Source: Raphanus sativus (lineage: Eukaryota; Streptophyta; Magnoliopsida; Brassicales; Brassicaceae). From it: a stretch of DNA of 64,000 nucleotides. The notes beneath the pieces were generated by a model. The model searched no databases. It was not told the DNA's origin and worked only from the letters and a program-made list of their open reading frames with translations. Below, one piece after another: positions 38,758-51,013 of the stretch. The DNA lies in contig NC_079516.1 of the NCBI RefSeq assembly GCF_000801105.2, forward strand, positions 50,947,265 to 51,011,264. Reading direction: 5' to 3'. The number at the start of each line of letters is the position of its first letter. The stretch's first letter is position 1. Both the position numbers and the translations under genes were made by a program.

Positions 38758-40235
38758 TCTATCTGTCGGATTCGGACAGCGAAAAGAGAGATTCAGATTT
38801 CACGTTTCATGTCATGTCTTAAGGGTGATGGAACGGCGTCGTTTGCGGGAGCATTTATTTAATTTTTCCTTTAACCCTTTGACAGTTTGTTTAAAGCTAC
38901 TTTTGATTGAAGCTCTCGTCTTTTGATTACACAAACATCATATAGATTTAAATAACGTTCACGAATTAATTGAAATCTGTGGATTTGCAATTTGGATGTT
39001 TCTTATGCATGATTAGTATCCATCTATCTAGATTTAATTTGAATTATAGTTGGGATAAATTTTTGTGAGATTGCATTCAATATCATAAAAGATGTAATCC
39101 AGCTCTCTTTCGGACTCTAAACTCGTCGAAACATAAATATAGGAATCTACTGAAATATTTAATTGTTGTCATATAATTAATTGTAATCTATCATTTTTTT
39201 TGGACAACATAATTGTAATCTATCATTATAATCTTATAGGTAGGGGTGGATACGATCGGGTATTACCATAATTTTCATATTTATTTCGTATGTTACAGAT
39301 ATCTAATTTTTGGATATACAATATGTTCATCATATTTGACTTACAAAAATACATGTGAATGTTTACTCACTGAATTGTCAAAACTAAAAAAATATGATCT
39401 TCATAACACAAAAACATAAATACCTAGTCCTCTATTACATAAGGTTTGATTGGATGTATGAAGAATACACAAATTTGCAATAGGAGTAACATATGGGATT
39501 TCCGTAACTATTGATACATTCAGGCCATATAGTCCAAAGGTATACAGTTGTACTCTAACATATTGTGTGTTTAATATAGTTAAATCAACTTCATATAAAA
39601 AAAAGAAGATAATAGTATGTAATCATTTTTGTACTCTTTTTCTTCATAAGATTTGTAGTTATGATAATTTTGTGTATATATCTATTGAAAAACTTTTAAT
39701 TGAGTAAAAACAAAAAGGTATTAAATCAAGAATCAAGAGTATTTTAAAACATGAAGTAAATTGACTATCTATTATATAAATTATTTGCTGACCAAAAAAT
39801 ATGAAGTATTAGATATTATGATTTTGAACAATTCACACTTTATGAGGATTTTAGAGAATACACACTTTATGAATTACTAATTAAACAATTAGACAAAACA
39901 TAACATTTGCTAAATAGTATAAGTCGCATGGTTCTCATCGACAATAATATGTCTTCTATCTAACATCACATCTTGTGATTTATTTCCAAAACAGTTATTG
40001 CATTTCGTTTTCTCAAAAAAATGAATGATCTCATGTTATAGTGTTGTAGTTTGCTTACCTCAAATCATCATCCTTGTAACTTGTTTATATGACTCTAGTG
40101 CACTGCTTGCGCAGTGTCTTAGCAGTTTTACATTTATTTGCTATTTGATCAATCAATAAAAATATTGATTAATAATGATAATTAAAAATTATGATATTAT
40201 TGAAATTTTGATCTATTTTTGAACATCTATTTGAA
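38756..40235. other. bZIP18 upstream region up to the MULE insertion
   Basis: AT-rich intergenic DNA with no gene seen. The MULE target-site duplication starts at 40236. Confidence 0.5.
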
Positions 40236-40244
40236 TAATTTAAA
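40236..40244. repeat. Left 9-bp target-site duplication of the MULE
   Basis: taatttaaa, identical to 50321-50329 on the other side of the element. A 9-bp duplication is typical of Mutator-like transposases. Confidence 0.92.
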
Positions 40245-40826
40245 GGGCTTATTGCAAAAGTGACTCAAAACTTGAATTCAAACAGAAAACTAACCTTTTC
40301 TTTTGACTCATTTTTTTTTTGAGTTTTTAACCCCACATCTGCATTTTATCTACGAAAATGCCATTAACCCTTTTTTTTTTTTTTTTTCGAAAATGGCTTC
40401 TTTACTGTCTCAACCTCATTTTCTTCAAGTATTTACAATATTGCCACTGCCATGAATAGTGGGAACAACCTTGTACGAACTGTTTGGAGCTTTTAATGCC
40501 CTTTAATGCACGTAAATCTCTTTACACTCTCTCTGTTTCAATTGTTATGAACTAAAAACAACATTTCTTTCACTTTCTCTCCATATTCATCCAAAAAACT
40601 GAAGCTTTTGATTCAAAATTGTTTGGAGCCATATTTCTTTCGTTTTGACTTACGGTTGCTTTCGTTTGAGGTTCTGGGTGGTTGGAGAAGACCCTGTGTG
40701 CAAACAAAGTCATCTCACCTAGTTGAAGGTACGAATTTGAATTTTTTTCAAAATCTGTTCGCGTAGAAGACTTACAAGTAAGTCATCTGTATGTAGAAGA
40801 CTTACTGATGAGTCTTCTGGTCAAAC

Positions 40827-41521
40827 GGACGACTTAAACTAAGTCGTCCAGCTTTGTTTGGTGAAAAAAAACAGTCCAGACGACTTATATATAAGTCGTC
40901 TACGAGAAACAGGCTAGTTTTGCATTTGACCGAATCGTGTCAGATCTTTGACTATTTCTGGACGACTTATAATTCAGTCGTCTCTCGGAAAGTTAAAATT
41001 TCAATATTTTATTAAACTAGACGACTTACGTGTAAGTCGTCTTAGGTTAGTTTTGTAGTTGAAAAATAAAACTTCATAATTTAATTTTTACCAGACGACA
41101 TAATATAAAGTCGTCCCGTCAGAAGACTTAATTTAAAGTCGTCCGGGGAAAGCAAAGTCGTCCAGAATTTTTCCCAATTAAGTCGTCCAAACCTTGCTTA
41201 TCCCGGACGACCTTAAATTAAGTCGTCTAGCTGGACGACTTTTAGTTAAGTCGTCTGGAGAAAGTTAAATTTCAAGTTTTATTTTTCAATTACAAAACTA
41301 ACCTGGGACGACTTACGTGTAAGTCGTCTAGTTTGAATAAAATATTGAAATTTTTACTTTCCAGAGACGACTGATTTATAAGTCGTCCAGAAATAGTCAA
41401 AGATCTGACACGATTCGGTCAAATGCAAAACTAGCCCGTTTTTCGTAGACGACTTATATATAAGTCGTCTGAATTTTTTTTTTTAACAAACAAAGCCGGA
41501 CGACTTAGAATTAAGTCGTCC
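40827..41521. repeat. Long inverted repeat in the left subterminal region of the MULE
   Basis: About 255 bp (40827-41085) is repeated almost exactly in inverted orientation at 41265-41521. The paired blocks include tgaccgaatcgtgtcagatc, tttcaatattttatt and acgacttacgtgtaagtcgt. The spacer of about 180 bp is also filled with AAGTCGTC motifs. A transcript across it would fold into a long hairpin. Confidence 0.9.
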
Positions 41522-41672
41522 CTTTTAATTTTCAATTGCAAAAGTGACCTCTTTAGACGACTTACCTTTAAGTCTTCTGGACGACTTAAATCTAAGTCGT
41601 CTGCGATAATGTTTGTTGAACTTCTTCATTTTCTCTATGTTTACTAATGTGTTTTATTTTGAATATTTGCAG

Positions 41673-44096
41673 ATGATTTTTAAGTTACATGCAGTGTATG
41701 GAGAATGGTTGTTGAGAGATTTCCGTTGGGATTTTGTGGTTGATGATCTCAAAGGAGCAAGATTGTTTTTATTGAATGAAGATTCAACACATGCTGAACT
41801 TGTTGCAATGGCTCAAGAAGATTATAACCTGGACATGAGATCAGTGACTGTGGAGATTAGCTACTCATTACCAGCAGAAATGATGATGACTCCAAGCAGT
41901 CCTCCCATTCATGTTACAAGTGATAGACAAGTTCGAAACTTGCTCGAGATACTCAAAACGCATAGAGTATGTCTTTGTGTATCAAGCCGCAGCAAGGTGG
42001 AAACGGTTTCAGAGAAAAGAGAAGAAGCTGGTGATAATGATGAAGCTGGTGAATGGGAAGAAGATGTTGGTGATAATGATGAAGCTGGTGAATGGGAAGA
42101 AGATGTTGGTGATAATGATGAGGCTGATGAATGTTTTGAAGATGTTGGTGATAATGAGTCTGTTGAAGATGAAAATCAAGATGGGGAGGAGGAAAATGGG
42201 GAGGAGGAAAATGGGGAGGAGGATGCTGATAACACTATTGTTGGTGAAACGGATCAGAATGGTGGGGATTACAGTCTTTATGGAAAGGTTCTAGATGAGG
42301 ACGAGGAAGATGATGATAATATTTGTTTTGAAGAAATTGAAAAGACATATGCTAAGACAAATGCTATTGAAGGAGGAAAATCGGATTGTACCAGCATCTA
42401 TGTCAACCAGAGTTTTGTTAGCAAGGATGCACTGCTTTCAGAGCTGCGGTTGACAGCAGTGAGGGGTAGGTTTTCTTTCAGAATATACAAATCAACAAAA
42501 ACTCTCCTTGTGGCAATATGTCGGGTTAGCGGTTGTGGATGGAAGATCAGAGCGAGTGTGAAACATGGGTCAAACACGTTTTGGGTAACAAAGTATGTGG
42601 AAAAACATTTATGCTCAATTGGAGACCGAATCGCTCAGCGGAGACACTGTACTCCAAAGTATGTTGGTAGTCTTTTCATTGATCGTGTTGGGATCATTGA
42701 TGGGATAACTCCACAGCATATCACTGATGCAATGAAGAACATGTTTGGCATGACGCTTGATTACACCACTTCATACAGAGCACTGTTATATGCACAGAAA
42801 TTGGTGAGAGGATCAGCAGAAGAAGGGTATTCGCGTCTGCCTTCATATCTCGAGCAAATCTCCATTGCAAATCCTGATTCTATCACGGCTATAGAACTTG
42901 ATTCTGAGAAAAGATTTAAGTATCTATTTCTCTCTTTTGGAGCTTCTATCAAAGGTTTTAAGTATCAGAGAAGGGTCATTGTGGTGGATGGAACTCACCT
43001 AAGTGGAAAGTATGGAGGTGTTATGTTAGTTGCAGCCGCACAAGATGGCAATTTTCAGATATTCCCATTGGCTTTTGGGATCGTGGATGCTGAAGATGAA
43101 CCTTCTTGGGAATGGTTTTTCACAAAATTGGCTAGTTGTATATCTCATGACAAGCCTCTGGTGATAGTCTCTGACCGGCACGCGGCCATTAAAAGTGCGT
43201 GTGAGAAGGTGTTTCCTTGGGCAACCCGAGGAATATGTTATTATCACCTTCAAGATAACATTGTCAAAAAGTTTAAAGGGAAACATCTCATGTACTTGGT
43301 GAAAGGGGCTGCTTATGCGCACACGGTTCACGATTTTAACCGGTACATGGCTGAGATACGGAGTGCAAACCCGGAACTTGCAACGTATTTGGAGAAGGCC
43401 GACGCCAAGCTATGGTCAAGGGTTTATTGTAAGGGGAACAGGTTCAACATAAAAACAAGCAACATCGCTGAATCTATTAATTCCGCACTGAAGCGAGCAA
43501 GAGGATTTCCGATTCCGTTCCTGCTGGAGTTCATAAGGCAGAAGTTAGGAAAATGGTATTGGAAAAGGAGACAAGATGCTTTGAGTCTCCCAACTGTACA
43601 TAGCCGGGGTGTTGAATACTTGCTTGCTGTTCGATCAGAGATAGCGGATACGATGACGGTCGAACCAATTGATGGATGGCGTTTCTTTGTCAAAGGTGGC
43701 AAAATGGACTGTGCGGTTGATTTGGAACATGTAAAGTGTGGTTGTGGTGTCTATGGAGTGGAGAAAATACCTTGCTCTCATGCTATAGCAGCTGGAACAC
43801 ATGCTGGTGTGCATATCGACACACTTGTATGTCCACTTTACTCAAAGAATCATCTGTATGCAGGATACTCAGAGAATATATATCCTATCGTGTCACAACA
43901 TATTGAGGAACGAGAATGCTTTCCTCCAAACGTAAAGCGTGGTCCGGGGAGACAGAAGAAATCAAGATGGCAATCTTGGTTGGAGCTATCTAGGATGAGG
44001 GGACACAAACCCAGGAAGAAACACAGGGCACGGAGATGCTCAAACTGCAAGGAAACTGGCCATACGAAACCACAATGTACACAACCAGTTGACTAG
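41673..44096 (+). CDS. MURA-type MULE transposase
   Basis: An open frame of 807 residues. The ATG at 41673 lies directly after a splice-acceptor-like ttgcag, so a leader intron is likely. The frame is open further upstream to 41613 but that part is poor coding sequence. The N-terminal 100 residues form a conserved MULE N-terminal region. An acidic repeat (GDNDEAGEWEEDV, about 115-180) and a Glu/Asp-rich stretch follow. About 262-316 is the MuDR DNA-binding zinc motif (CRVSGCGWKIRA ... KHLCS). The DDE catalytic core is at about 435-600: VVDGTHLSGKY, SDRHAAIKSA, and the glutamate in NIAESINSAL. The SWIM zinc finger is at about 688-710 (CGCGVYGVEKIPCSHAIAAG), and a CCHC knuckle at about 788-801 (CSNCKETGHTKPQC). 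All catalytic residues are present. It acts in the nucleus to cut and join the element ends. Motif arrays start directly after its stop codon. Confidence 0.95.
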   Translation: MIFKLHAVYGEWLLRDFRWDFVVDDLKGARLFLLNEDSTHAELVAMAQEDYNLDMRSVTVEISYSLPAEMMMTPSSPPIHVTSDRQVRNLLEILKTHRVCLCVSSRSKVETVSEKREEAGDNDEAGEWEEDVGDNDEAGEWEEDVGDNDEADECFEDVGDNESVEDENQDGEEENGEEENGEEDADNTIVGETDQNGGDYSLYGKVLDEDEEDDDNICFEEIEKTYAKTNAIEGGKSDCTSIYVNQSFVSKDALLSELRLTAVRGRFSFRIYKSTKTLLVAICRVSGCGWKIRASVKHGSNTFWVTKYVEKHLCSIGDRIAQRRHCTPKYVGSLFIDRVGIIDGITPQHITDAMKNMFGMTLDYTTSYRALLYAQKLVRGSAEEGYSRLPSYLEQISIANPDSITAIELDSEKRFKYLFLSFGASIKGFKYQRRVIVVDGTHLSGKYGGVMLVAAAQDGNFQIFPLAFGIVDAEDEPSWEWFFTKLASCISHDKPLVIVSDRHAAIKSACEKVFPWATRGICYYHLQDNIVKKFKGKHLMYLVKGAAYAHTVHDFNRYMAEIRSANPELATYLEKADAKLWSRVYCKGNRFNIKTSNIAESINSALKRARGFPIPFLLEFIRQKLGKWYWKRRQDALSLPTVHSRGVEYLLAVRSEIADTMTVEPIDGWRFFVKGGKMDCAVDLEHVKCGCGVYGVEKIPCSHAIAAGTHAGVHIDTLVCPLYSKNHLYAGYSENIYPIVSQHIEERECFPPNVKRGPGRQKKSRWQSWLELSRMRGHKPRKKHRARRCSNCKETGHTKPQCTQPVD

Positions 44097-44560
44097 TTGT
44101 CCAGACGACCTAAATATAAGTCGTCCAGTCTTGATTACCCGTCCAGACGACTAATTTCTAAGTCGTCCAGTGTTTCGTCTACCTTCTACGAAGTCGTCCA
44201 GTGTATTAGACTACCTTCTACTATCCCTTCAAGTGTATTTTTTTAGACGACCTTTTACGAAGTCGTCCAGTGTATTTAAGTCGTCCAGTGTATTTAAGTC
44301 GTCCAGTGTTTAGACTACCTTCTACTATCCCTTCAAGTGTATTTTTGTAAGTCGTCCAGCTGGAAAACCTTCCAGACGACTTATTTGTAAGTCGTCCAGC
44401 TGGAAAACCTTCCAGACGACTTATTTGTAAGTCGTCCAGCTGGAAAACCTTCCAGACGACTTATTTGTAAGTCGTCCAGCTGGAAAACCTTCCAGACGAC
44501 TTATTTGTAAGTCGTCCAGCTGGAAAACCTTCCAGACGACTTATTTGTAAGTTAGAAAAT
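44097..44560. repeat. AAGTCGTC-motif array downstream of the transposase, with a 40-bp minisatellite
   Basis: Irregular motif copies at 44100-44310 are followed by about five tandem copies of a 40-bp unit (44347-44549). The unit reads gtaagtcgtccagctggaaa then accttccagacgacttattt. Each unit contains one motif in each orientation around a cagctg palindrome. Confidence 0.9.
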
Positions 44561-44752
44561 CTATACAAGTTAGAAAATCAAATAAATCATACATGCCCAC
44601 AAACATACAAATAGATTTGTGTAAACAAATAGTTCAAATATACAAATAGATTTGTGTATACAAATAGTTCAAATATACAAATTGATTTGTGTATCTATAC
44701 AAGTTAAAAAATCTATACAAGTTAAAAAATCTATACAAATTGATTTGTGTAT

Positions 44753-47700
44753 CTAATCATACATGCCTACAAACATACCACCATCCTCATTATCTTTCAG
44801 ATGCTGATCAACAAGCTCCGTCCATATAGCCAAAGCCATAGTATCCCTCATAGTCTTCGCATTGGACCTAGCAAAGTCTTTAGGGCTAAAGGGGACCCCA
44901 AGAGCATGACATTCAATGTACTTTGCAGCGTACACGCCACAATCACCATTGTTGGCCGTGGGTACATCTTTGAGGAGTCTCTCATAAGTGTATCGCTCCA
45001 ACCCATGCATCTGGTCTCCGCACTCCACAATCAGATAAGGGACCATCTCGAGAAAAGGCTCCATTATCTCATCCCATCTTTCTGGTATGGTAGTTGAAGG
45101 TATGCTGTCCCAGACGACTATGTGCCTCTTAGGGATCGATATCCAAATAGCCACCCAATGTTTGTTGTCCAAGTTCAGTGGCGCATAGATATCATCAATG
45201 TCCTCCCCCCACTTCTTGTTTGATTGGCAAAATGAAGGCATTGATCCGTCATACAAACTCGCCGCCCCACTAGGTAGCATTTTTCCTAAACCATTGTGAT
45301 CAGACGACGATGTTTTGAAGACCAGATACTGTTCTCTCCAAGACTGGGTAAAGTTGTGATCCAGGAAGCACATTCGCTCGCTCCGGAAACATTGTGGGTT
45401 CTCCTTATACCTCTGCCTCAGCACATTCATCCAAGCATCTATATGCTGCATATAAAATAATACAAGTTAGAACCTTCCAGACGACTTACAAATAAGTCGT
45501 CTGGAAGGTTTTCCAGCTGGACGACTTACAAATAAGTCGTCTGGAAGGTTTTCCAGCTCGAAAACCTTCCAGACGACTTATTTGTAAGTCGTCCAGCTGG
45601 AAAACCTTCCAGACGACTTATATATTTACAAATCTATACAAAGACAAGTTACCAGACGACTTATTTGTAAGTCTTCTGGAAGGTTTTCCAGCTGGACGAC
45701 TTACAAATAAGTCGTCCAGCTGGAAAACCTTCCAGACGACTTATATATTTACAAATCTATACAAAGACAAGTTACCAGACGACTTAAAGATAAGCAGAAG
45801 ACTTACTACGTCTTCCAGCCATGCTTTGGATGTCCGGAGTTTTTGATACCACCAAGTTGGTGATGTACGTGGTTTGTCCTCTTCCTTAGTGAAATAATCA
45901 CTGCAAACAAAAAAGCAATCAGTTTTGGTAGACTAAATCAAGCTATTATGGGTAAAGCAATCACTTACGGATCAGTTTTCAACCAATCAGCGAGCTCCTT
46001 CATCTTAGGTCTGTTTAGTGTGGGAAATGGATTATACTTTCCCACTCTAAGGAGTTTCCTTCTCTCTGCCGTATAAGGAGATATCTGCGTGGGAGCAGGT
46101 TTCTTCGTTCGTTCACTCCTTGCACGCACAGAAGCAGTGGGAGCTGTTTGGTCCAATACAACCAGGCTCGGTTCTGAAGCTGAAGCTGGATCGGTGGAAG
46201 CGAAGCTCGGTTGTTGATCGTTGGAAGCGAAGCTCGGTTGGTCAGTGGAAGTGAGAGGAACAATCTCTTTGGAGGTGACACCATCTGCTTTATCCTCCGG
46301 CAAGATCTTATATACCGAGATCGCCTCATCTGCTGTATCCTCCGGCAACAATCTCTGCAATAAAAGAGAACAAGTTAACCCTGGACGACTTAAATAAAAG
46401 TTGGGAGAGGATTTGGTTCCAGCTGGAGTTCAGACGACTTATTTGTAAGTCTTCTGGAAGGTTTTCCAGCTGGACGACTTACAAATAAGTCGTCTGGAAG
46501 GTTTTCCAGCTGGAAAACCTTCCAGACGACTTATTTGTAAGTCGTCCAGCTGGAAAACCTTCCAGACGACTTATATATTTACAAATCTATACAAAGACCA
46601 GACGACTTAAAGATTTGATATTAACCTCTTTGGGCAGAGGAGAAGGCTGTTTCTTTTGTGGAGAAGGCTTTTTCGTTTGAGGAGCAGGCTGTTTCGTCTG
46701 AGGAGCAGGCTGTTTAGTTTGAGGAGCAGGCTGTTTCGTTTGAGGAGCAGGCTGTTTAGTTTGAGGAGCAGGCTGTTTAGTTTGAGGAGCAGGCTGTTTA
46801 GTTTGAGGAGTAGGCTTTGCCTTTTGAGGAGCAGGCTGTCTGGTGGGAGGAGTAGGATGATTGGTTTGAAGTGGAGGCTGATCCTTTTGAGGAGTAGTCT
46901 GTTTGTTACTAGCCCCGGTTTCTGGGGCTTGTGGGGTAGGGTGTTTTTTACTAACCCCGGTTTCTGGGGCTTGAGGGGTAGCCTGATTGGTGACACCAAC
47001 CTTCTTCTCCACAGCTTCCAATCTATCGGAGATCTTCCTAATCTCCCTGATGCACTTCTTAAACCCCTCTTTCATCATGTCACCTAAGTCCTTGAACATG
47101 TTTTCTAACTCCTCTCTGGTCACCCAACTAGCCTCTTCTCTAGCCTCTTCTGTAGCCTCTTCTGTAGCCTCTGTAGGAGCCTCTTCTCTAGCCTCTTTAG
47201 GAGCCTCTTTAGGAGCCTCTTTACGAGCTTTCTTCCGAGGTCTCTGATTGTCTTCCTCCACCTCCTCCACAACCATCTCTTTGGCTCTTTTCGATGGAGT
47301 CACAAACTTGGGTTTTGTACCAGTGACTTCCCAGCAATCCATGGTCCACTTCCACGGTCTCCGATCATACATCACTTTAATGATGTTCTCCGCGGGCACG
47401 TCATCAACCTCAGAGTCCCATTTTGGCCACATTTCACTAATGTCCTTCTCAACAAAGTTGATCACGCGGGTCTGCAGTAAATAGAAGAAGAATCGAGTTA
47501 GATATTTGAAACAAAATACTAAATAGACGACTTAATTATAAGTCGTCAACTAAGTCGTCCAGCTGGACGACCTTCCAGACGACTTATTATAAGTCGTCTA
47601 CTAAGTCGTCCAGCTGGACGACCTTCCAGACGACTTATAATAAGTCGTCTACTAAGTCGTCCAGCTGGAAGACCTTCCAGACGACTTATAATAAGTCGTC

Positions 47701-49056
47701 TACTAAGTCGTCCAGCTGGAAGACCTTCCAGACGACTTATAATAAGTCGTCTACTAAGTCGTCCAGCTGGAAGACCTTCCAGACGACTTATAATAAGTCG
47801 TCTACTAAGTCGTCCAGCTGGAAGACCTTCCAGACGACTTATAATAAGTCGTCTACTAAGTCGTCCAGCTGGAAGACCTTCCGGACGACTTAATTAAGTG
47901 AAGATGGAAAGGTACCTGACTCAAGATAGCAGCTTTCATGAATCTGCGGCCTCTGCTGCCGTCGTAAGCCAGAATCGGTGGAGACGGACTGTTTGCTCTG
48001 GGTAGACCAATACTAGCACCCAATCCCGGAATAGCTTCGTACGCCCAGACCTGAAGAACTTGTATAAAGCCATCCACGGTGTAACAGCCAGTAATATCTT
48101 TGTTCCACAAAGAGTCCATCAGCACCTTAAACGCGACTCTCCCCCATGGATAATTCTCAAACCTTTCTAAATCCATCACTAGCCTTGCGAGAGTAGCTCG
48201 TGTAGCGCTTGAGAACTTTTTCCCTTCAATGAATCCAGTGAAGATGGAAAGGTACGCGAGTCGCTTGCGATCTTCCCTGGACCAATCCCCGCATCTCTTC
48301 AGTGCTGCTATTATCTGATCAGTACTTGGCCCAGCTTCCCGATGAACTCCCATCATCTCCCAGAAAGAAACCATCTGTGGGGTAACTTCACATTCTGGTG
48401 TCTCAAGGTCCTCGATGTAGTCGCAGTTTAGACCAGTGATGTTTTCAAACTCTAACAGTGAAAACCTCGCAGGTTCTGGACCAACGAGACACCACATCTC
48501 GTACTTCTTCTTAATGTCCAGCTTTAAACCGAGCAAGTGGTGAACCAGCCTTGAAGCCCAACCAAATCCCTGCTCCTTGAACTTGATGAAAACTCCCAAT
48601 CTCGACTCCTTGAGCTCTTCAAATTCAGCATCAGTGAGAGCTTCCCTAAGAGCAGTATGCAACTTCGTGTTATCCGTATGATACGAAATGCTATTGTGGG
48701 GTTCTGGCTCTTCCCCTAATGTGTATAACCTACGGGGGAGTTCTGGAATATCCATCCTTTTTGTCTGCAAAATAATCAAAGACAACAATAGAAGTCAGAA
48801 CACAAGCTAAATCAATCACGCCTTAATTGTTACTCCAGACGACTTAGTAGACGACTTAAATATAAGTCGTCTAGAAAGTCGTCCAACTGGACGACTTAGT
48901 TGACGACTTATATTTAAGTCGTCTGGAAAGTCTTCCAAATGGACGTACTAAGTCGTCCAGGTTGAAGACTTTCCAGACGACTTACTTACAAGTCTTCCAG
49001 TAGAAAAATTTCAAGCGGACCTGATTAGTCGCAGAAGGAGTTCGAGTACTCGTCAT
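44753..49056 (-). CDS. MULE-encoded DUF1985 / ULP1-like cysteine protease protein
   Basis: Six exons on -: 49021-49056, 47916-48764, 46626-47471, 45969-46354, 45807-45900, 44753-45445, giving 967 residues with consistent phases. Residues 13-295 are a DUF1985-like domain (FIKFKEQGFGWASRLVHHLL, LSIFTGFIEGKKFSSATRAT, PWGRVAFKVLMDSL). About 296-577 is a linker with a nuclear-type basic patch (RPRKKARKE), EAPKEA repeats, a short coiled coil and a run of about 10 PAPQTKQ-type repeats. The C-terminal 230 residues are a C48 peptidase fold with the full triad: H833 (KHWVAIW), D850 (VVWDS) and C906 (NNGDCGVYAAKYIE). ULP1 enzymes cut SUMO from proteins. The role in MULEs is unresolved; protection of the transposase or host chromatin interference are guesses. 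Every intron contains AAGTCGTC arrays. Confidence 0.88.
45446..45806. repeat. AAGTCGTC-motif array in intron 5 of the ULP1 gene
   Basis: About a dozen motif copies in alternating orientation, made of the same 40-bp unit type as the array at 44.3 kb, including an inverted pair of units. A 75-bp segment (accttccagacgacttatat through agttaccagacgactta) occurs twice. Confidence 0.85.
46355..46625. repeat. AAGTCGTC-motif array in intron 3 of the ULP1 gene
   Basis: About eight motif copies in both orientations at 46380-46620, closely related to the units in the intron 5 array. Confidence 0.82.
47520..47900. repeat. 51-bp minisatellite of AAGTCGTC motifs in intron 2 of the ULP1 gene
   Basis: About seven tandem copies of a 51-bp unit (aagtcgtccagctggaagac, cttccagacgacttataata, agtcgtctact). 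Each unit has three motif copies, two direct and one inverted. The array fills the intron between 47472 and 47915. The copies are nearly identical, so amplification was recent. Confidence 0.92.
48765..49020. repeat. AAGTCGTC-motif cluster in intron 1 of the ULP1 gene
   Basis: About nine motif copies in both orientations at 48835-49000, not arranged as a regular tandem array. Confidence 0.8.
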
Positions 49057-49179
49057 TGTGGTTATAGATCTGAAAAAATAAACGTGAAACGGTGAGAATG
49101 AGTAAATTGAAAGAGACAACGTTTTATGTTCATCTTTTCCACGAGTTTGATGACTTACCGGCGTTAGGGTTTACAGAGA

Positions 49180-49420
49180 AACGGCGCTACGGTTTACAGA
49201 GAAGAAGCGGCGGCGCTAGGGTTTAGAAGAAGCGGCGGCGCTAGGGTTTAGAAGAAACGGCGGTGCTAGCTAGTGTTTAGAGTAAGCGGCGGTGAGAACG
49301 TTGGTGAGCACGGTGGCGAGGGCGACGGTTTGTTCGGAAATAGTGGAAGCGGGGGCGCTAGGGTTTAGAGGAATCGGCGGCGCTAGGGTTAGAAGAAGCT
49401 GCGGCGACAACGGTGAGAAT
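49180..49420. repeat. GC-rich minisatellite in the presumed leader/promoter of the ULP1 gene
   Basis: A unit of about 25 bp (ggcggcgctagggtttagaa) repeats about five times with variation upstream of the ATG at 49056. Its GC content contrasts with the surroundings. The tagggttt words are telobox-like. Confidence 0.7.
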
Positions 49421-50096
49421 GAAGTGAGATAGATAGCCGACGTTGAGAACGATGGTTGTTCGGAAATAGTGGGAATTCGAATCGCCTTTGATATCGCCGG
49501 TGAGAGAGAACTGTTAGGGTTTCTGTTCGCGGAAAATGAAAAAAAAAAAAAAAAAATCACCTTATATATTGGGTAAATAATCCGGTTAGCTTTAAAAGTA
49601 CATTGGTAAACTTTAAGGTTTGGTCCGGTTTAGACGACTTATTCTGGCTGATAATGTACATCAGACGACCTAATATTTAGTCGTCTGGGAACAGAAGACT
49701 AAATATTAAGTCGTCCAATACCCTAAAATGAACCCCTAAACTAAAATGACTAAATTAACTTACTAACCACGTTATAAAATCAAATTATACTTCAATAGTG
49801 TTTACTATACACAGAAACGAACACGCCTAGGTAATTTTAAAAATTTTCAAAAACGGTTTTAATGCTTTCCAAAATCTAACCCTAAGAACACATACAATAC
49901 TACAACATATGTTGATGAAACATAAACTAAAGAATATCATGACTCACTACTTTCACTCATCTGGGCTGAAAACAATTGAAATTTGTTATATATTAATTTA
50001 TATCTCTTAAGACATATGTTAATTACATAATTCCAATTTTTCACTTATCAAAATATTTTCTACAAAATTTTTAAATTATGTTTAAGAATAACTGTC

Positions 50097-50162
50097 CAGA
50101 CGACTTAACTTAAAGTCGTCTGGACGACTTATTTTCAAGTCGTCTGTTTACAGACGACTTGC
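50097..50162. repeat. AAGTCGTC-motif cluster near the right end of the MULE
   Basis: Five motif copies in about 65 bp (cagacgacttaacttaaagt, cgtctggacgacttattttc and following), mirroring the motif-rich left subterminal region. Further single copies lie at 49630-49720. Confidence 0.85.
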
Positions 50163-50320
50163 GAGGGGTAGAAACGTAAAAAAAAATCCGTTTTTTTGTT
50201 TGTTCACAAGGAGATAGTTGTAATTTCAATAGCCTTTTAAGTTACTTTTGCCTTTGACCCAAGTTGGGGTACTCTTTTGGGTTTGACTCCAAGTTTTGAG
50301 TCACAATTGGTAATTCTCCC

Positions 50321-50329
50321 TAATTTAAA
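50321..50329. repeat. Right 9-bp target-site duplication of the MULE
   Basis: taatttaaa, identical to 40236-40244. Confidence 0.92.
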
Positions 50330-51013
50330 TTCAGAAAACTAAAGGTAAAAAAAATGAATATAAACGAATACTAAAATGTATAAGTTATTGTATGGATGGT
50401 TATTCTAAATCTAAATAAGCAACACAAATATTCAAATTTGTATTTAATCTCATCTAACATTTTTCTTGTATTTGATTTTTTTCGTTCTTATTATTGCTGG
50501 ATATATTGTTTGTTCACATCTTATTTTGTTTAAAATATGTTAAAAATGAAGCATTAATTAATTGAATTGAAAATGAATAAAATTTAAAATAAATCTTATA
50601 CATAGTTATAAAATATACATAAATTTGACATATCACTAATCAAATATATATTAAACATGGATAAAGCAGACATAATTGAATCCGAAAACTCAGAAATTCC
50701 AACAAATTAAATCAAACCAGAATGGATATCCAAATATACTAGTATCAAATTCTGAAAAACTAATATTATTTATTATTTTACATTTAGGTAGATTTTAATA
50801 CATGTGTATGTATATGTGTGCTTTATTTATATTGTAAAGGCCCATATCACTATGGGTTGAGATTAATAGACCCCGATTTATATTTCAGGCCCATAGGAAA
50901 CTGAGATAACGCCGTTAGTTGGAAGTCCGTTATTTTCGAGGCAACTAACCCTATGTAAGAGTGCTTCGGTTTCAGCAAAGAGCCAGCCCCAAAAGAGAGA
51001 AGATAAATTGAAG
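50330..51013. other. Upstream region of the OB-fold gene
   Basis: AT-rich DNA followed by the presumed promoter and leader of the OB-fold protein gene, with two Site II elements. No gene seen. Confidence 0.55.
50839..50894 (+). promoter_or_regulatory. Pair of Site II elements (ggcccat)
   Basis: ggcccat at 50839-50845 and 50888-50894, i.e. ATGGGCC on the other strand, the TCP-factor binding Site II motif common in promoters of plant translation and cell-growth genes. They lie about 120-175 bp upstream of the OB-fold gene ATG, which fits its role in translation. Confidence 0.6.

Follow-up and report, generated by a model that had tools for sequence, protein, structure and literature searches.

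Why should a transposable element repeat a single 8-bp word throughout its non-coding DNA, and which protein might read that word? The question is raised by a complete two-gene Mutator-like element (MULE) of 10,076 bp, flanked by a perfect 9-bp target site duplication, at positions 40245-50320 of a 64-kb stretch of the Raphanus sativus genome (NC_079516.1, positions 50,947,265 to 51,011,264), here called the window. The original prediction for this locus proposed a new self-recognition system, comparable to that of VANDAL MULEs but with a different motif and possibly a DUF1985/ULP1 partner. The element is instead best read as a member of the VANC system itself, with a DUF1985 domain and a KIU-type Ulp1. 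On the sequence evidence, our best reading is a recently multiplied MULE family of the VANDAL/KIU kind, and we consider it probable that the element carries a VANC-DUF1985-Ulp1 (KIU-type VANDAL) anti-silencing system that reads TAAGTCGTCY.

The word AAGTCGTC and its complement GACGACTT occur as 98 exact copies inside the element (52 on the plus strand, 46 on the minus strand) and not once in the remainder of the 64-kb window. A first-order Markov model of the element gives an expectation of 0.4 copies, and the reversed pattern, which served as the control in the 433-Mb genome, is found about 0.28 times per 10 kb (12,158 occurrences); the original estimates of about 100 copies in 10.1 kb, with about 0.3 expected by chance, are thereby borne out. 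When the 8-mers of the element are ranked, AAGTCGTC (98) is followed by TAAGTCGT (88) and by AGTCGTCT (57) plus AGTCGTCC (44), which marks a sharply bounded word; AGTCGTC[C/T] is present 101 times (57 plus 44). As had been described, copies fill both subterminal regions, the gap behind the transposase and every long intron of the second gene, and only intron 4, of 68 bp, has none. The compartments are as follows.

40236 to 40244, no strand: left copy of the target site duplication TAATTTAAA, from sequence comparison of the flanks
40245 to 40274, plus strand: imperfect left terminal inverted repeat, whose inner 15 bp, GTGACTCAAAACTTG, match the right end exactly; 306 genomic matches
40245 to 41672, no strand: left subterminal region, upstream of the transposase; dispersed palindromes hold many of its 24 motifs
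41673 to 44096, plus strand: MURA-type transposase open reading frame with MULE, Transposase_mut, DBD_Tnp_Mut and SWIM matches; no motif
44097 to 44749, no strand: gap between the convergent genes; 16 motifs, with an 18-bp array and an array of 5.2 x 40 bp
44750 to 45445, minus strand: VANC-Ulp1 exon 6, Ulp1 (Peptidase_C48) and stop codon; PF02902, E 9e-34; yeast Ulp1 1euv, E 0.0017
45446 to 45806, minus strand: intron 5; 12 motifs (40-bp units)
45807 to 45900, minus strand: exon 5, from the gene model
45969 to 46354, minus strand: exon 4, from the gene model
46355 to 46625, minus strand: intron 3; 8 motifs; the repeat unit differs in L067, an older copy
46626 to 47471, minus strand: exon 3, variable region with a charged stretch and P/Q/T-rich 7-residue repeats, from the gene model and a repeat search
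47472 to 47915, minus strand: intron 2; array of 7.4 x 51 bp with 22 motifs; predicted hairpin transcript
47916 to 48764, minus strand: exon 2, DUF1985; Pfam PF09331, E 2.7e-27; VANC21 structures 9lnj/9lnk, E 5.7e-6
48765 to 49020, minus strand: intron 1; 9 motifs (52-bp units)
49021 to 49056, minus strand: exon 1 with the start codon, from the gene model
49057 to 50320, no strand: VANC-Ulp1 upstream and right subterminal region; 7 motifs
50290 to 50320, minus strand: right terminal inverted repeat, from comparison with the left end
50321 to 50329, no strand: right copy of the target site duplication TAATTTAAA, from sequence comparison of the flanks

The absence of the word from exons, emphasized in the original prediction, is real (no copy in 5,331 bp of coding DNA, and none of 487 motifs in exon-aligned DNA at nine fetched loci) but uninformative. 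Because only 0.025 copies are expected from codon usage under synonymous shuffling, the coding zero tells only that the arrays grew outside exons, and it was rejected as a sign of function. The claim that most copies form inverted pairs also stands, as a modest majority: 29 tight palindromes of the form GACGACTT-N(5-6)-AAGTCGTC, with 15 different spacers, hold 58 of the 98 copies, and of 85 pairs of neighbours no more than 60 bp apart, 56 are inverted and 29 have the same orientation. Genome-wide, inverted pairs of the form AAGTCGTC-N(0-30)-GACGACTT number 6,611 against 6.

The second gene, convergent with the transposase gene and modelled from splice sites, is predicted to have six exons with GT-AG introns and to encode 968 amino acids, open throughout. 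A search of the Protein Data Bank with its DUF1985 exon (E up to 1) returned a single match, chain 9lnj_A, 'VANC21', in which residues 81-249 align with 102-276, and the Ulp1 exon aligns with yeast Ulp1 at the H, D and C positions, which we take to be the catalytic residues. By sequence similarity the DUF1985/Ulp1 protein is a VANC homologue, so the comparison with VANDAL elements in the original prediction was correct and closer than proposed. That prediction named no recogniser, and the VANC-Ulp1 protein is now a strong candidate for the role. A single-sequence structure prediction for the DUF1985 exon (mean pLDDT 36) was too poor for a fold search. In the Ulp1 domain (44753-45445, minus strand) the residues PTANNG precede DCG where yeast Ulp1 has PQQPNG, so that the glutamine, which presumably helps catalysis, seems to be replaced.

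Excerpts of Hosaka et al. (2017, PMC5735166) draw the VANC proteins of Arabidopsis VANDAL elements with DUF1985 and DUF287 domains and describe them as binding or acting through short own-family motifs in non-coding DNA, with loss of DNA methylation. The motifs given there, YAGTATTAY for VANC21 and AGTTGTCC and AGTTGTAC for VANC6, accumulated by tandem repeat formation in non-coding DNA. AGTCGTC[C/T] lies one base from the VANC6 word AGTTGTCC, the difference being a C/T change at a CpG; it is thus not identical to any of these words, as predicted, but neither is it wholly different. In our own post hoc comparison, AGTCGTC[C/T] and the three published words all fit AGTNNT[A/C][C/T], a pattern that a random 8-mer would fit about once in 1,000, or about once in 170 when two strands and three registers are allowed. 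In a full-text literature search 524 papers contain the 8-mer, and among the 30 listed no title concerns VANDALs; we do not claim that the motif is unpublished.

DUF1985, DUF287 and Ulp1 are reportedly named as VANC-associated domains, in at least ten systems, in the abstract of Sasaki et al. 2022. According to the part of a 2026 review that cites the same study (PMC13317346), Ulp1-carrying VANC genes (KIU) act likewise on motifs in KIU-carrying Vandals. The present element resembles these in pairing a MULE transposase with an Ulp1-carrying VANC gene and own-kind non-coding motifs, and differs in that the review counts three genes for the group, whereas two were modelled here, with five stretches scanned against Pfam. 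The likeness to VANDAL6 lies in a word, AGTTGTCC (PMC5735166, in excerpt), that is one transition, at the CpG, from AGTCGTCC, and in tandem repeats in non-coding DNA; the differences are the fused Ulp1 and the palindromic pairs, the string 'ulp' being absent from the text of PMC5735166. VANDAL21 (Hiun) shares the DUF1985 homology by sequence, the common pattern AGTNNT[A/C][C/T] and, in the same excerpts, a short dense motif placed mostly in non-coding DNA, including introns and ends. A crystal structure of VANC21, then unpublished, is mentioned in a meeting report (PMC8756742).

The other features of the element also agree with a VANDAL/KIU assignment: a Mutator-like transposase (PF10551, E 4.4e-23; PF00872, E 1.7e-11; PF03108, E 2e-7), DUF1985 and Ulp1 in the same predicted gene, and a dense, family-specific non-coding motif that is partly tandem. 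Target site duplications of about 9 bp are expected for VANDAL MULEs, and such a duplication is found here and, also perfect, in the 7.2-kb copy L069. KIU/Vandal elements are termed non-TIR (without long terminal inverted repeats) in the excerpt of the 2026 review (PMC13317346); the ends here form a short, imperfect inverted repeat of some 30 bp, its core having 15 identical positions, so that the element has no long TIR, yet is not TIR-free.

The word follows this MULE family through the genome. A search with up to 3 mismatches found 306 left ends of the family and none with the reversed control, and AAGTCGTC itself occurs 34,989 times against 12,158 (2.9 times). The excess of 22,831 corresponds to about 75 copies per left end, so the family could account for most of it. 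Among the 100 hits listed (C1, first 2.76 Mb), 41 fall in three clusters, all in copies of the present family, and the remaining 59 are scattered at about 21 per Mb versus 28 per Mb in the control, which is no more than background density. Fetched copies hold 30 (L007), 47 (L071), 56 (L069), 72 (L006, whose locus contains a 100-base N run), 83 (L005) and at least 90 motifs (L070), and three copies cut by assembly gaps hold 20 (L008), 7 (L009) and 4 (L010); L079 enters no count. Of 50 fetched left ends, 44 keep nearly the full set of 24 left motifs (22-24 each); the other six are L011, L043 and L048 (assembly gaps), L025 (12 motifs), L041 (10) and L024 (none); the list has exact ends first, so this sample favours young copies. 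L005 (G000:C1:7887001-7897000) is without the transposase, and its VANC exons 2-6 align full length at 99.4-100% DNA identity; its match to the element begins at base 26. Arrays of the VANC6 word, sought as tandem AGTTGTCC pairs in the 433-Mb genome, are little above the control (41 versus 27), and three of the six loci that they brought in (L062, L063 and L065) are copies of the present family. In the older copy L062 (G000:C1, around 18443140) a second Ulp1 exon match lies inverted about 1.9 kb away, which suggests a nested or rearranged insertion.

The closest rival to a VANC interpretation, and an unlikely one in our judgement, is that the word is the binding site of the element's own transposase, spread through the element by duplication. 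Subterminal repeats are the binding sites of the Ac and Spm transposases, and here both subterminal regions carry motifs (24 left, 7 right), as does L069, a complete 7.2-kb derivative that has both ends but has lost much of VANC and keeps its 56 motifs. However, it is the VANC introns in the middle of the element that are densest in motifs (intron 2 has 49.5 per kb), whereas the right-end region, at 5.5 per kb, is the sparsest of the compartments that contain any, and on the left no motif lies in the outermost 583 bp. The word is moreover similar to VANC motifs, and a VANC homologue is among the element's own products. A transposed copy devoid of the motif would discriminate between the two explanations, and none was found: L024/L080 (G000:C2:4165300-4173300) is a 371-bp left-end fragment, 96% identical and without a motif, followed by other DNA (LRR-like by eye), and it was rejected as a transposed derivative because the 8 kb fetched contain no right end. 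We infer that the VANC protein, rather than the transposase, binds the motif, and that this binding is anti-silencing.

Slightly less likely again is passive minisatellite expansion: with no protein to read it, a single palindromic unit would have multiplied in introns and spacers, where it was tolerated, and would have been eliminated from exons. Many copies do belong to genuine tandem arrays with units of 40, 51 and 52 bp, the first two evidently related; the exon absence is expected by chance, and motif columns of the left region evolve like their neighbours. Against this, units with little else in common carry the word (one of 18 bp in the window, another of 42 bp in L067), it recurs in palindromes with 15 different spacers, and it fits the VANC motif pattern. 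It also persists in older copies: L067 and L068, with 72-90% protein identity outside the repeat-rich exon 3, keep 57 and 32 motifs, and in intron 3 of L067 the repeat unit has been replaced but the same word kept. Between the window and L067, motif columns, taken as the union of both copies in alignments that favour motif-to-motif pairing within arrays, differ at 0/56 positions versus 40/1,067 elsewhere in the right end, 0/76 versus 5/180 in intron 1, 2/128 versus 12/207 in intron 2, 3/57 versus 83/185 in the replaced intron 3, 1/80 versus 20/179 in intron 5 and 22/122 versus 99/444 in the gap. With L068 the counts are 4/32 versus 36/117 in intron 3, 1/80 versus 20/179 in intron 5 and 24/152 versus 102/494 in the gap. 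Across the right end and intron 1 of 13 rows (the window and 12 loci that have a right end, L077 being kept despite its additional duplicated piece), motif columns are the less variable, 6/128 against 152/1,422 (p = 0.03; circular-shift fraction 0.045), and 2/96 against 125/1,304 when only non-CpG columns are taken (p = 0.009).

Several results weigh against the VANC interpretation itself. The VANC21 match is distant and spans just part of DUF1985. VANDAL21 motifs (YAGTATTAY) are reported in the same orientation in the excerpts of PMC5735166, whereas 56 of 85 neighbours here are inverted, mainly as palindromes; same-orientation neighbours are thus the minority in this element, and that arrangement is reported for VANDAL21 and not as a rule for all VANDALs. 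A 10.5-bp phase is absent from the spacing pooled over all motif pairs (scores 0.02-0.22), and the 0.36-0.75 scored by same-orientation pairs alone is inflated by tandem arrays and has no null model. In the left region, motif columns are no more conserved than others in 12 rows (15/192 versus 122/1,241, p = 0.43), nor than other array columns in 44 rows (p = 0.79). The 12 rows are ten of the loci of lower identity among L011-L040, L072 and the window, with the split L037 left out and L041-L060 unranked; the 44 rows are 43 of the 50 fetched left ends and the window, with L011, L019, L024, L025, L041, L043 and L048 left out for gaps or deletions. Constraint on the motif is accordingly suggested at the right side and not shown at the left. 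In the 44 rows, C>T or G>A changes affect 3/48 motif CpG columns versus 12/58 others (p = 0.049), but the older copies, in which any change was counted, give 6/48 versus 8/60 (p = 1) on the left and 4/32 versus 27/118 (p = 0.23) on the right, and CpG sparing was not used as support. Distances between motif starts within most tandem arrays (47525-47899 and 44344-44552) lie near multiples of 13 bp (13/14, 26, 40, 51/52) and not of 10.5, again with no null model.

Owing to its inverted motif arrays, the RNA of intron 2 should by prediction fold into a long and almost perfect hairpin (-262 kcal/mol, z = -23.8). Small RNAs directed at the element could plausibly arise from it, which would make it a plausible entry point for the host. 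That the inverted arrays are mainly hairpin-RNA or tandem-repeat triggers of host small-RNA silencing, the enrichment being the host's side and not self-recognition, is highly improbable: this hairpin, a 230-bp inverted repeat in the left region (40858-41087 and 41261-41490, 86%) and the overlap of non-coding targets of host RNA-directed DNA methylation with those of VANC (PMC10398659, in excerpt) speak for it, but it leaves unexplained both the one 8-bp word common to different units and the 22-24 of 24 motifs kept by 44 of 50 left ends, and it is compatible with VANC binding and can coexist with it. In intron 5, the splice donor (45797-45806, minus strand; GTAAGTCTTC) itself departs from the motif at a single base, and several array units have, on the coding strand, the strong donor word GTAAGT. 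Upstream of the VANC gene, 49200-49406 holds GC-rich, motif-free 25-bp repeats (GGCGGCGCTAGGGTTT-like), and an Rfam scan of 40000-50600 gave no match at the gathering threshold.

In the VANC anti-silencing reading that we favour, (T)AAGTCGTC(C/T) would most likely be the DNA word read by the element's VANC-Ulp1 protein, and through the dense arrays in upstream regions, introns and the 3' gap the protein could coat copies of its own family. Such coating would remove DNA methylation and silencing, after which the transposase and VANC would be expressed and copies, defective ones included, could move. This kind of system is known, and, as far as the excerpts of the published work extend, the word, its CpG and the palindromic pairing would be the element's additions. 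A more elaborate scheme, which we offer tentatively and think rather doubtful, has VANC-Ulp1 sitting as a dimer on the CpG-containing palindromic dyad GACGACTTA-N(4)-TAAGTCGTC. Since a CpG is present in this word and absent from those of VANC6 and VANC21, binding could in that scheme depend on methylation and act as a two-state switch, with Ulp1 removing SUMO from silencing factors at bound copies.

The locus thus offers a clear candidate pair of VANC-Ulp1 protein and target word, in a genome where the family has 306 left ends and where some two thirds of the occurrences of the 8-mer in 433 Mb are in excess of the control. The word is one CpG transition from that of VANC6, and with VANC21 solved and the words sharing AGTNNT[A/C][C/T], how VANC proteins change the DNA word that they read becomes directly testable.

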